In this document: positions 22,405 to 26,536 of the stretch, in pieces
How positions within the stretch are numbered: the stretch's first letter is position 1
Layout of the letters: each line of letters opens with the position of its first letter
NCBI GenBank assembly: GCA_021791195.1
Contig: JAJYXB010000025.1
Location: 1,400-45,193 of the forward strand
Source: Actinomycetes bacterium
Lineage (GTDB): Bacteria; Actinomycetota; Thermoleophilia; BMS3ABIN01
Direction of reading: 5' to 3'
Length of the DNA stretch: 43,794 bases
Translations under genes and position numbers: made by a program
Notes under the pieces: generated by a model
What the model was told of the DNA's origin: nothing
What the model saw: the letters and a program-made list of their open reading frames with translations, nothing else
The model's database searches: none

Positions 22405-23421
22405 CTAGGAAATATGGCGGCCGGTCATCTCCACGTAGCGCCGGACCTCGTCAGCGAAGAGTATGAACTCATCCACCGGCAGTGATTGCGAGCCGTCGCA
22501 CAGGGCTTCTTCCGGCTCGGGGTGGGTTTCGATCAGCAGACCGTCGGCGCCCACGGCTACCGCGGCCAGCGACAGCGGCAGCACCAGGTCGCGCTTGCCG
22601 GTGGCGTGGCTGGGATCGACGATCACGGGCAGGTGGCACTGCTTCTTGATGACCGGGATCGCTGAAAGGTCGAGCGTAAACCGCGTCGCCGTCTCGAAAG
22701 TGCGGATGCCGCGCTCGCAGAGGATGACATCGGCGTTGCCTTCCTTGAGGATGTACTCCGCCGCCATCAGTAGCTCCTCGATGGTGGCGCTCATGCCGCG
22801 CTTGAGCAGCACCGGCCGCTCCACCTTGCCCACCTCGGAGAGCAGCTGGAAATTCTGCATGTTGCGCGTGCCGATCTGGATGACGTCGGCATACTTGAGG
22901 ATGGTCTCCACGTCGCGCGGATCCATCAGCTCCGTGACGATCGGCAGGCCGGTCTCCTGACGGGCGGCGGCCATGATCTTCAGCCCTTCCTCCCCCAGCC
23001 CCTGGAAACTGTAGGGCGAGGTGCGCGGCTTGAAGGCGCCGCCGCGCAGCATCGAGGCGCCGGCATCCCTGGCCTGGCGCGCGGCCTCCATGTACTGCTT
23101 CTCGCTCTCGACCGAGCACGGCCCGGCGATGAGCGCGAAGGCGCCGCCGCCCAGCGCATGGCCGTTGACGGTGACCACGGTGTCGTCCGGATGCGTCTGG
23201 CGGCTGGCGAGTTTGTAAGGCTTGAGGATCGGCATCACCCGGTCGACGCCGGCCATGGCGTCGAAGGGCAGTGTCGAGATCCGCTCGCGGTCGCCGACGG
23301 CGCCGATGATTGTCACAAATTCTCCACGGGATACATGTCCGCGGGCGCCAACGCTGGCCAGCCGGTCGACAACGTGCTGGATCTGCTCCTCCGTAGCGTC
23401 CGGCTTCATCACGATCATCAT
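22405..23421 (-). CDS. aroF: 3-deoxy-7-phosphoheptulonate synthase, type I-beta with ferredoxin-like regulatory domain
   Basis: DAHP synthase condenses PEP and erythrose 4-phosphate, the first step of the shikimate pathway. Residues 1-70 (MMIVMKPDATEEQIQHVVDR...) form the ferredoxin-like regulatory domain known from Thermotoga maritima, where it binds Tyr or Phe. The catalytic barrel follows, with IAGPCSVES, LRGGAFKPRTSPYSFQGLG, DVIQIGTRNMQNF, LLKRGMSATIEELL and VIVDPSHATGKRDLV. A strong GGAGG lies 9 nt before the first ATG. The gene is preceded by a hairpin leader and, further up, by a structured RNA. Allosteric control by aromatic amino acids is inferred from the family. Confidence 0.96.
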   Translation of the reverse strand: MMIVMKPDATEEQIQHVVDRLASVGARGHVSRGEFVTIIGAVGDRERISTLPFDAMAGVDRVMPILKPYKLASRQTHPDDTVVTVNGHALGGGAFALIAGPCSVESEKQYMEAARQARDAGASMLRGGAFKPRTSPYSFQGLGEEGLKIMAAARQETGLPIVTELMDPRDVETILKYADVIQIGTRNMQNFQLLSEVGKVERPVLLKRGMSATIEELLMAAEYILKEGNADVILCERGIRTFETATRFTLDLSAIPVIKKQCHLPVIVDPSHATGKRDLVLPLSLAAVAVGADGLLIETHPEPEEALCDGSQSLPVDEFILFADEVRRYVEMTGRHIS

Positions 23422-23505: not shown

Positions 23506-23560
23506 CCGCGAGGTTTACATTCTAACACTCTTCAAGGAAAGGAAAAACTGGGAGGAGCGC

Positions 23561-23591
23561 AAAAAAATAAGCCCCAAGAAACCTGGGACTT
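23561..23591 (-). terminator. Intrinsic terminator of the structured RNA
   Basis: On the minus strand AAGUCCCAGG (23591-23582) pairs with CUUGGGGCUU (23578-23569) with two G-U pairs and a UUU loop, followed by seven T (23567-23561). The 3' half is also perfectly complementary to 23701-23710, so the terminator and the long-range closing helix exclude each other. Confidence 0.85.
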
Positions 23592-23865
23592 CCGTTTTTC
23601 TGACTTTCCGCAGGTTCTTCCTGCTTCTTGTAAGGCCTCATTGCCTTACCTTCCGGCGACCTTCGCCGCTTTCTTGTCAGAATCGCTTCTGTCTTTCGAC
23701 TTCTTGGGGCCTTACATCTCCCTCGCGGGAGGTGCAGTCTTTATTTACCCGGCAAACGAAATACTAAACCACCCGGCAGACAGCTCCCCAGCTGCCGCTG
23801 CCGGGTGGCTCAATAGGCAGAGCCTGCGGCGCCGGATCATTAAAGTCAAATTCTGACCCGGCGCC
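23561..23865 (-). ncRNA. Unidentified structured RNA ending in an intrinsic terminator
   Basis: About 300 nt without a plausible gene fold into a dense series of helices on the minus strand, in 5' to 3' order. First is GGCGCCGG/CCGGCGCC (23865-23858 with 23835-23828). Next is a 10-bp CCACCCGGCA/TGCCGGGTGG helix capped by CAGCT-CCCC-AGCTG. Then comes CTCCC-GCGA-GGGAG. After these, a 10-bp closing helix (23701-23710 with 23571-23580) encloses five short hairpins: 23691-23700, 23678-23691, 23654-23668, 23630-23649 and 23610-23624. The linkers repeat CAAGAA. A second ACCCGGCA (23747-23754) could compete for TGCCGGGT (23799-23806), so two folds are possible. It may be a free RNA or a riboswitch-like leader upstream of aroF. 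I do not recognise the class; T-box and cobalamin signatures are absent. Confidence 0.65.
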
Positions 23866-23950: not shown

Positions 23951-24538
23951 CTAGTCATCACCACCCATGCTACCGTGAGCGTGGCTTTTCGCGTGGCTTT
24001 CGCCTGAACCCGTCCGGTCGGAGTCTCCGCTACCCGAACCATGATCAGAGGCGCCCATCGCCGGCTGGGTCTGCGTCTGGGTCACCGGCGGAACGGAGGG
24101 CTCATCGCTATCATGCTGCCTGGCGGCACCGCTGACGGCCATGCCGTGATTTTCGACCTCGTGGCCGTTGGGCAGAGTCATCGTACCGGTGGCTTCCTTG
24201 TCGCGAGCCACTTCGGAAACGCCATTATCTTCGCCATACTGATTAGCTGCAGCGTCATGATCGGCCTCAACATTACCACTGCCCTTGTCGCCCGGTTCCC
24301 CCGGACCGTACTGGGCGCCGGCCGCGCCGCCATTCCCGGAGCTGTCGCCGTACTGGTCAGTAGTGGCGGTGCCAGTGGTTGACGTTCCCTGATTACCCGC
24401 TCCCGAGGAAGACCCCGTGATCGCAGCCACGCCGCCCTTTACGACATCCGGCAGCTGACCTGTGGCCGCGAACGCAGCGCCGGAGACTCCGAGCACCATG
24501 CCCGACACCATCATCGCCAGCTTGAGCTTTGTATTCAT
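23951..24538 (-). CDS. Secreted low-complexity Gly/Ser/Asp/His-rich protein
   Basis: This 195-residue protein has a clear signal peptide (MNTKLKLAMMVSGMVLGVSG, cleavage likely after AAFA). The mature part is almost entirely low-complexity: Gly, Ser, Thr, Asp and Gln-rich, with a TQTQTQP stretch and an end rich in His and Ser (ESHAKSHAHGSMGGDD). No cysteine and no known fold is seen. The start has GAGGTAAGGGC before ATG. It is divergent from the ECF sigma factor, whose partner protein carries a similar Ser/Asp/His-rich tail, so the three may form one envelope module. The function is unknown; metal binding by the His-rich end is only a guess. Confidence 0.8.
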   Translation of the reverse strand: MNTKLKLAMMVSGMVLGVSGAAFAATGQLPDVVKGGVAAITGSSSGAGNQGTSTTGTATTDQYGDSSGNGGAAGAQYGPGEPGDKGSGNVEADHDAAANQYGEDNGVSEVARDKEATGTMTLPNGHEVENHGMAVSGAARQHDSDEPSVPPVTQTQTQPAMGASDHGSGSGDSDRTGSGESHAKSHAHGSMGGDD

Positions 24539-24841: not shown

Positions 24842-25432
24842 TTGACTGAGAAGCGCGAGCTGGCCAGACTGGTCAAGCAGGTCCAGAATGGTGACCTGGA
24901 GGCCTTCGGCCAGTTATATGACCGGTTTTACGGTCCAGTGTTCGCATATGTGCTGCATCAGGTGGGCTCCGCCGCTGACGCGGAAGATATCGTTTCGGGA
25001 GTGTTCCTGGACGCGCTGCAGAAGATAGGTGGATTCACCTGGCGCGGCGCCGGTTTCGGAGCCTGGCTTTTCAGCATCGCCCGCAACGATGTGATGGATT
25101 ATTTCCGCCGGCAGGGAAGATCAAGGGAGGCGACGATCACGGAGCAGCATATGGAACTTGCATCCGCGGAGAGAGTGGACCGCATCGCCGAAGCCGCCTG
25201 GGACGAGCGCCGTCTGCGCGAAGCGGTCTGGCAGCTATCGGAAGAGCAGCAGCAGGTCGTGCTGCTGAAGCTGATGGTGAATTTCAGCAACGGCCAGATC
25301 GCCGCGGTGCTCTCCAAAAGCGAAGGTGCGGTAAAAGCGCTGCAGCACCGGGCGCTCGAGAACCTGAGAAAGATCATGGAGTCAGGGACGGAGGATGGAA
25401 CCGCTCTCATCGACAGGGAAAGCGCCATCTAG
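24842..25432 (+). CDS. ECF-type RNA polymerase sigma-70 factor
   Basis: This 196-residue sigma factor has region 2 (AFGQLYDRFYGPVFAYV ... DAEDIVSGVFLDAL and FGAWLFSIARNDVMDYFRR) and region 4 (LSEEQQQVVLLKLMVNFSNG, then QIAAVLSKSEGAVKALQHRAL), with no region 1 or 3. This is the ECF layout. The start is TTG behind AGGAGCC. The next gene, 9 bp downstream, is a DUF5667 membrane protein, a frequent neighbour of ECF sigma factors in actinobacteria and a probable regulator. Target promoters are unknown; the divergent secreted protein gene is the obvious candidate. Confidence 0.93.
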   Translation: MTEKRELARLVKQVQNGDLEAFGQLYDRFYGPVFAYVLHQVGSAADAEDIVSGVFLDALQKIGGFTWRGAGFGAWLFSIARNDVMDYFRRQGRSREATITEQHMELASAERVDRIAEAAWDERRLREAVWQLSEEQQQVVLLKLMVNFSNGQIAAVLSKSEGAVKALQHRALENLRKIMESGTEDGTALIDRESAI

Positions 25433-25441
25433 AAGACAGAA

Positions 25442-26536
25442 ATGGCTGATATAACGGACATTCTTGATAGCGGGCTTGACGAGGTCCTGCGCGGCGGCGC
25501 GGCCGGAGCGGCCGTGGCCAGCGAGCCGGCAGTTGAAGTGGCCCCCCTGGTGGAGCTGGGCTCCGCGCTGCGCGGCGCGCTCAGGACCGGCATCCCGGCG
25601 CATCCGCCGGCGGCGGTCAGGGAGAGCCTGCTTGCCAGGGCGCAGGCCATCGTCAAGGATGCGCCCGCGCGGCGATCCCGTTCCGTGCGGCGGCTGGTGC
25701 TTCGCCCGGCAGCCCTGGCTGCGGTACTGCTGACGGCCTCGGCGGGCACGGCGCTGGCAGCCAATGCCGCCGGCCCGGACAGCGTCCTCTATCCTCTCAA
25801 GCAGGAACTCGAAAACGCCCGCAGCCTGATCGCGGTGCAACCCCTGGACCGCGCCGCCGTCAAGGCAGGCGACGCCGGCAAGCGCCTGGATGAGATCCAG
25901 GCGATGGTGAACAAGGGCGAGCCCCGGTTTGTAGGCGGCCTGCTGGCGGCTTATGACAGCGACATGGCCCAGGCCCGGCAGCTGGTTTCACAGGCGGCTG
26001 CCGGCGGCGCAAACACCTCCGCCGTCGCTGGCATGATCGAGGCTACGCGCGCACGGCACGATGCCCTGCTGGCGCAGATCGCCGGCAAGGTGCCGGCTGA
26101 CGTGCAGTCGATCATCAGCCACGAAGAACATCAGGGCCAGATGAATGACGGCAGCCCCGCGGGTCGGGACGGTCAGATGGACAGCGGCGCGTCCACCGGC
26201 GGCATGTCTCCGGGCAACAGCGCCCCGGCTGGCGGCGGCGTCTCTGGGGCCGGCGATGGCGGCATGCCCGGCGACGGCATCGGTTCCGGGCAGATACATG
26301 GCGGTAGCGCTGCTGAACCGCAGGAGCCGGCCGAGCCGGCTGAAGGCGGGATGAAATCTGGCGGCCAATCCGGCAGTCATCCGGCGGCTCCGGCGCCTTC
26401 TCATAGCGGTCAGCCGACCGATTCTGGCGACAGCGACAGCCACAGCCACCACACTGATAGCATGTCCGACCAGCAGAACATGAACTCCGGCGGCTCTTCC
26501 CCCTCAGCAAGCGGCATGTCTGCTCCCCGCCGCTGA
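25442..26536 (+). CDS. DUF5667 membrane protein, putative anti-sigma partner
   Basis: The 364-residue protein has an N-terminal cytoplasmic segment of about 85 residues ending in a basic patch (RRSRSVRRL), one membrane segment (PAALAAVLLTASAGTALA, about 88-106) and the DUF5667 core GPDSVLYPLKQELENARSLI with helical repeats to about residue 220. A long extracytoplasmic tail follows, rich in Gly, Ser, Pro and His (HSHHTDSMSDQQNMNSGG). The topology matches single-pass anti-sigma factors, but the N-terminal part has no HxxxCxxC zinc motif, so the anti-sigma role is inferred from context. It is co-transcribed with the sigma gene. Confidence 0.85.
   Translation: MADITDILDSGLDEVLRGGAAGAAVASEPAVEVAPLVELGSALRGALRTGIPAHPPAAVRESLLARAQAIVKDAPARRSRSVRRLVLRPAALAAVLLTASAGTALAANAAGPDSVLYPLKQELENARSLIAVQPLDRAAVKAGDAGKRLDEIQAMVNKGEPRFVGGLLAAYDSDMAQARQLVSQAAAGGANTSAVAGMIEATRARHDALLAQIAGKVPADVQSIISHEEHQGQMNDGSPAGRDGQMDSGASTGGMSPGNSAPAGGGVSGAGDGGMPGDGIGSGQIHGGSAAEPQEPAEPAEGGMKSGGQSGSHPAAPAPSHSGQPTDSGDSDSHSHHTDSMSDQQNMNSGGSSPSASGMSAPRR

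Follow-up and report, generated by a model that had tools for sequence, protein, structure and literature searches.

Several known groups of bacterial RNA resemble the family described here. In transcription-terminating riboswitches and T-box leaders a closing helix likewise overlaps a terminator, and it is established that some of them hold a kink-turn or a sarcin-ricin/loop-E motif, like the main type of our family. CsrB, CsrC and RsmZ (RF00084 and relatives) share with it small hairpins strung together by purine linkers as well as stress-type control. 6S RNA (RF00013) and Ms1 are also free-standing, compact RNAs of about 150–200 nt closed end to end, and paralogues of 6S/Ms1-like RNAs under different promoters are known. 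The raiA motif and other actinobacterial orphan RNAs in Rfam are likewise conserved structured RNAs of Gram-positives without assigned function. The RNA we describe upstream of aroF in an actinobacterium of the class Thermoleophilia belongs, as covariance models show, to an undescribed family without a match in Rfam that often occurs in several versions per genome.

We analysed a window of 43,794 nucleotides, by which we mean the whole stretch of DNA. Searches with Rfam 15 at the gathering cut-off gave no match in the window; at relaxed thresholds CsrC, mir and sRNA_0030 appeared, which we rejected as chance matches. At E ≤ 1 nothing except tRNA was returned for 20 loci of relatives and paralogues, and the raiA motif gave no match at E < 1 in the searched paralogue loci. 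The aroF-locus RNA family thus differs from the raiA motif and the orphan RNAs in that no model matches it, and the original prediction, which had been unable to place the RNA in a known family, holds in this respect. A literature search for small RNAs described in Thermoleophilia found none.

The minus strand between positions 23555 and 23870 folds with -148.1 kcal/mol, whereas 100 dinucleotide shuffles averaged -106.4 ± 5.0 kcal/mol and none of them was as good (z = -8.4). The predicted transcript alone (23739–23562, minus strand) gave a z of -6.7, with 0 of 200 shuffles as good. Features of the locus are listed in Table 1. The long-range helix of 10 bp that had been proposed (23701–23710 with 23571–23580) proved to be exact and reaches 13–15 pairs if G-U pairs are counted. 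Among 14 aroF-type relatives this helix, P1, has 13 pairs, and 98% of the corresponding cells are paired. The predicted intrinsic terminator with seven U, which was said to share the 3’ strand of P1, is real as well. Next inside P1 comes a longer-range helix P2 (23693–23691 with 23589–23587, minus strand), followed by P3, for which compensatory changes were found at all six aligned pairs in the 14 relatives. Five small hairpins had been placed in the multibranch loop; three of them were retained, whereas the local hairpins GUCGAAAGAC and CAGAAGCGAUUCUG were rejected since they are outcompeted and replaced by P2 and P3. Most aroF-type relatives have a P0 stem on the 5’ side, and in the three without it the promoter abuts P1. 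One aroF-type RNA (L052:1340–1556, genome G007) is rearranged: a short loop remains alone inside P1, and the hairpins are now positioned 5’ of P1 behind a GGGTAT promoter-like box.

Table 1. Positions of predicted RNA, promoter and gene features around the aroF-locus RNA in the window
Feature	Position	Strand	Basis
SigB/SigF-type promoter: -35 GTTTAG 23769–23764, 13 nt, -10 GGGTAA 23750–23745	23745–23769	-	conserved motif
Predicted small RNA transcript	23561–23739	-	start inferred about 7 nt past -10; end within U-run
P0, 5’ hairpin beyond closing helix	23713–23736	-	fold and comparison with relatives
P1 5’ strand, GGCCCCAAGAAGUC, closing helix	23698–23712	-	near-invariant sequence
P3 5’ strand UUCUGAC; partner 23604–23598	23676–23682	-	compensatory changes
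Hairpin GCGGCGAAGGUCGCC within P3	23654–23668	-	fold
Hairpin GUAAGGC..GCCUUAC within P3; extra compared to most relatives	23630–23649	-	fold
Hairpin GCAGGAAGAACCUGC within P3	23610–23624	-	fold; equivalent (helix 6) covaries in relatives
P3 3’ strand GUCAGAA	23598–23604	-	compensatory changes and tree-aware null
P1 3’ strand, GGUUUCUUGGGGCUU; doubles as terminator 3’ arm	23569–23583	-	alignment and terminator fold
Intrinsic terminator: 10-bp stem 23591–23569, loop UUU, then U7; excludes P1	23561–23591	-	-13.6 kcal/mol, z -3.1
-10 box TAGAAT, separate predicted aroF promoter	23519–23524	-	conserved
aroF, DAHP synthase; neighbour, probably not main target	22405–23421	-	PF00793 8e-84, PF18152

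A second competition had been proposed on the grounds that ACCCGGCA is present twice. Both copies do exist, but the one at 23747–23754 is the -10 region (GCCGGGTA) of a SigB-type promoter. As transcription would start near 23739, this copy would lie outside the RNA and the second competition is unsupported; judging from the promoter sequence, it is a coincidence through promoter overlap.

The motif GTTTA-N14/15-GGGTA is present upstream of 13 of the 14 aroF-type RNAs at nearly constant spacing, at a distance of 9 nt from P1 or of 34–61 nt where P0 intervenes. It matches once in the whole window, both strands considered. The promoter agrees with the SigB consensus of B. subtilis, GTTTAA-N12-14-GGG(A/T)A(A/T) (PMC8346170), and two SigB/F/G-type sigma factors above the NCBIfam cut-off are encoded in the genome. 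For aroF itself we found a separate -10 box, which is also kept in two genomes of the same genus (G004 and G005, loci L006 and L011) that lack the RNA at that place. Three same-genus genomes gave no match to the aroF-locus RNA, and in these two the aroF upstream region is intact. Since RNA and aroF have separate conserved promoters, the RNA is most likely to be read, from its sequence context, as a gene of its own and not mainly as an aroF leader. The position upstream of aroF that the original prediction had emphasized is therefore correct, but its relevance is partly lost: the promoters are separate, and the main members of the family stand elsewhere. Most aroF-type relatives in the genus g6 lack a good U-run, so that read-through into aroF is possible there. 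The promoters of the other copies are of a different type. B2 and f5 copies, defined below, have sigma-A-like promoters; in f5 TTGACW-N16/18-TAnnnT ends 7–9 nt before the RNA in 14 of 17 copies, and U-runs follow the RNA. The main type in general is about 145 nt long with a TTGACA-like promoter and a U-run.

A DNA search of 99 relatives initially revealed two conserved pieces upstream of aroF, the RNA proper and an element that we call A. Element A (23768–23809, minus strand) is a 42-bp near-perfect inverted repeat (CCACCCGGCA..GGCAGCUGGGGAGCUGU..UGCCGGGUGG), which in 15 genomes separates the RNA from the exported-protein gene upstream. It reaches up to 100% identity over 44 nt with relatives from another genus, its ends show compensatory changes (A-U to G-C), and in the window it adjoins the -35 box of the RNA promoter. 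The exported-protein gene (23951–24538; no Pfam match) is divergent from an ECF-type sigma factor gene followed by the gene of a DUF5667 protein (24842–26536, plus strand), and all three genes stay near aroF in most relatives. Another repeated inverted element, AGAATCTATCTCAAAAGGC...GCCTTTTGAGATAGATTCT, is MITE-like and is found in several places near RNA genes in genome G001 (L005, L065).

From nine aligned copies of the RNA, the window included, we built the covariance model R1 and searched whole genomes; all genomes named here are metagenome-derived. R1 matched 17 of the 19 genomes of the window’s own family (f1), with 13 of 13 among those whose completeness reaches 90% or more, and gave no match in genomes of other families among 299 genomes of the class. 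It also detected copies elsewhere in the same genomes, namely a tandem pair, which in several genomes lies downstream of pgk. We refer to the aroF-locus copy as B1 and to the tandem copies as B2 and B3. B1 is present in 14 of the 19 f1 genomes, and several genomes contain a fourth paralogue (e.g. L081). In the genome that contains the window (G000; contig C23, L063) B2 and B3 are found in tandem downstream of pgk at 1501–1643 and 1736–1884, each with its own promoter. Model R2, derived from B2, matched B2 in 14 f1 genomes as well as 17 genomes of f5, a second family of the same class, at E ≤ 1e-3, E-values of the family models resting on short calibrations. In total R2 matched 34 of 399 class genomes, all belonging to f1 or f5, and R3, built from both families, found members in f1 and f5 only among 396 genomes of the phylum. 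The f5 genomes (L082–L098, L103–L118) carry one to six copies each, usually at a distance of 200–350 bp from a divergent tRNA-Gly(CCC) gene. A pattern scan for the B2/B3 core detected seven contigs of Thermoleophilia/Actinomycetes and one of Gemmatimonadetes (L076), by pattern alone.

Cross-detection connects both types: main-type copies were among the matches of R1, and aroF-type copies among those of R2. The window copy scores 70.6 bits with R1, of which it is one of the nine source sequences, and 30.6 bits (E = 3.9e-5 within the window) with the independently built R3. It shares with the family P1 with a conserved GUCCCAAGAAGUC-like sequence, the purine loop and detection by the model. Because R3 still recognizes the window copy, B1 counts as a divergent family member. 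By sequence it is a paralogue that retains the end helix P1, has lost the core and has gained a stress-type promoter.

Covariation in homologues, to which the original prediction had pointed as a check, was indeed found. In B1 19 of 34 pairs changed on both sides and 0 of 500 shuffles were as good (14 sequences, the alignment having been fitted to the covariance model); nine sequences aligned with MAFFT at the outset gave 8 such pairs compared to 3.4 expected. For B2, 17 of 35 pairs changed on both sides and 96.7% of cells were paired in a MAFFT alignment that was fitted to no structure model. When all main-type copies were combined with five B3 copies (36 sequences), changes on both sides were observed at 28 of 35 pairs. 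We also used a tree-aware null in which Fitch changes were re-placed on a FastTree tree, scoring pairs by a G-test with APC. Against this null 10–11 of the 35 pairs of the main type were significant, as were 4 of the 34 pairs of B1 (14 sequences), with columns 47–147 and 48–146 of P3 among the significant pairs. In the main type the eight top-scoring column pairs of all are proposed pairs, and a structure-blind MAFFT alignment analysed with RNAalifold recovered 26 of 35 pairs.

The strands of the P4-P5 junction of the main type read NGA-GGAA and AGUAC-NNN-GAA. The kink-turn positions G2n, A1n, G(-1n), C(-1b), G1b and A2b are invariant in 31 of 31 main-type copies, while the three loop bases vary. 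A bulged-G (sarcin-ricin) signature, AGUA/GAA, adjoins the kink-turn, and the bulged G is kept in 28 of the 31. Sixteen further f5 copies lie outside the models, and 12 of them keep both core strands at the same spacing. We take these motifs to be a kink-turn and a sarcin-ricin motif from established knowledge of their consensus. By inspection, this core is absent from the aroF type, and no L7Ae-type kink-turn protein was detectable by Pfam in the genome. A conserved GGAGGAAAUG reading frame in the main type (AUG CGG NNN UAA) was considered and rejected because G004 and G005 lose the AUG, which reads AAA there, yet keep the stem by compensatory change.

The mutually exclusive terminator of the original prediction stands as a structural fact and recurs in f5, but it is weak in most aroF-type relatives. 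In f5 the terminator hairpin (AAGCGAGUU...GGCUCGCUU) excludes P1. Its energy lies between -12 and -17 kcal/mol in 12 of 17 copies, and a run of at least 5 U follows in ten of these. In most aroF-type relatives the competing hairpin has between -6 and -10 kcal/mol, frequently a value that shuffled sequences match, and a clear U-run is missing from some of them. As far as the predicted folds tell, the exclusion of P1 and terminator is a true feature of the family. The overlap alone proves no switch, however, because it arises whenever the closing helix of an RNA runs up to the terminator. A riboswitch or attenuator should combine an exclusive, conserved closing helix and terminator with a consistent co-directional, promoterless downstream gene. 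The helix and terminator were found, strong in the window and in f5, but such a downstream gene was seen with B3 and part of the f5 copies alone. At about ten f5 copies the RNA points towards a convergent gene pair, mutM-argS-like by sequence signature alone (PELPEVET start). Read-through there has no sense target, so these copies are not leaders and cis-switching cannot be the general function. Of ten B3 loci, most have the gene of an AMIN-like lipoprotein 27–45 nt downstream of the RNA (one of the AMIN-like matches falls slightly short of the Pfam cut-off), which leaves no room for a further promoter in most loci; at least one family member is therefore a 5’ leader. Some f5 copies are found directly upstream of an EamA transporter gene. 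Family members may thus have been recruited as leaders in places.

We think it fairly probable, on the sequence evidence, that the aroF-locus RNA is an independent stress-induced small-RNA gene, probably protein-binding, and a divergent paralogue working in trans. Of the two functions originally suggested, the stable regulatory RNA is borne out by conserved structure, an own promoter and the absence of an Rfam match, but the switch is not as a general function. A riboswitch-like switch in cis, in which a ligand, a protein or temperature selects between P1 as antiterminator and the terminator, with read-through reaching aroF here and the lipoprotein or EamA transporter gene elsewhere, would fit the exclusion seen in the window and in 12 of 17 f5 copies and the leader positions of B3 and some f5 copies, and kink-turns and sarcin-ricin loops are frequent in aptamers. 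We nevertheless hold it to be rather unlikely: many family copies have no co-directional downstream gene, about ten f5 copies facing convergent genes instead, aroF has its own promoter, the competing hairpin of the aroF type is mostly weak and at times lacks the U-run, the neighbouring genes have no common pathway, and no Rfam model of a riboswitch or T-box matched. A combined model is possible but tentative. According to it, the RNAs would form a new small-RNA class whose core binds a protein or ligand and whose helix/terminator overlap is a built-in switch, split into housekeeping, mRNA-leader and aroF stress forms.

A CsrB/RsmZ-like sponge titrating a GGA-binding translational regulator is suggested by CsrC as the best Rfam match (18.2 bits, E = 0.0027), by the presence of GGA in the linkers and in the loops of its small hairpins and by the stress-type promoter. 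The gathering cut-off of CsrC is 61, far more than was reached, the aroF type shows no excess of GGA (5.1 compared to 4.6 in shuffled sequence), and the genome contains no CsrA (PF02599), a domain that was found in controls, which makes this reading very unlikely. Even less can be said for a divergent 6S or Ms1-type RNA binding RNA polymerase. The similar size, the closed rod shape and the paralogues under different sigma factors would agree with it, but this genome has a separate 6S gene over the Rfam cut-off (C3:42113–42269, 79.7 bits), and each of the 19 f1 genomes likewise has its 6S at another locus. Moreover, RF00013 is unmatched at the aroF-locus RNA, the models share no match, and the new family has no large open central bubble and, in the main type, carries the kink-turn/sarcin-ricin core. 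With CsrA absent and 6S a separate gene, neither analogue applies. 6S itself was over the cut-off in 70 of 119 genomes of the class; the literature calls it long undetected in Actinobacteria. We also considered a non-functional, decaying copy, or an ordinary terminator region folding well by chance. The window RNA belongs to the more diverged copies of its type, with one hairpin more and some P2 pairs lost; the covariation, the conserved promoter and an occurrence in 14 of 19 genomes nonetheless render this reading as improbable as a 6S relative.

For the favored independent small RNA, we infer transcription, stress induction, action in trans and a protein partner from computationally observed structure, homology, covariation, promoter conservation and separation from the aroF promoter. 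A SigB/SigF-type general-stress sigma factor with RNA polymerase would start near 23,739 and produce an RNA of about 175 nt, ending near 23,561 in the U7 terminator; once complete, this RNA would be held shut by the long P1 helix. The main members would be transcribed constitutively from TTGACA/TATAAT-like promoters, and the aroF-locus RNA would be their stress-controlled divergent paralogue. Family RNAs would act in trans by protein binding, the main type via its kink-turn/sarcin-ricin core and the aroF-locus type via the common P1 end, with different internal hairpins. The stress copy may then modify or compete with the housekeeping copies.

Through this work a deep-branching actinobacterial class gains a well-supported RNA family with alignments, structure and models. 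Several paralogues per genome, with different sigma factors, a common end and different cores, represent a comparative system for finding binders. As the genome has a conserved kink-turn but no recognizable L7Ae-type protein, the question of the partner becomes a testable one.
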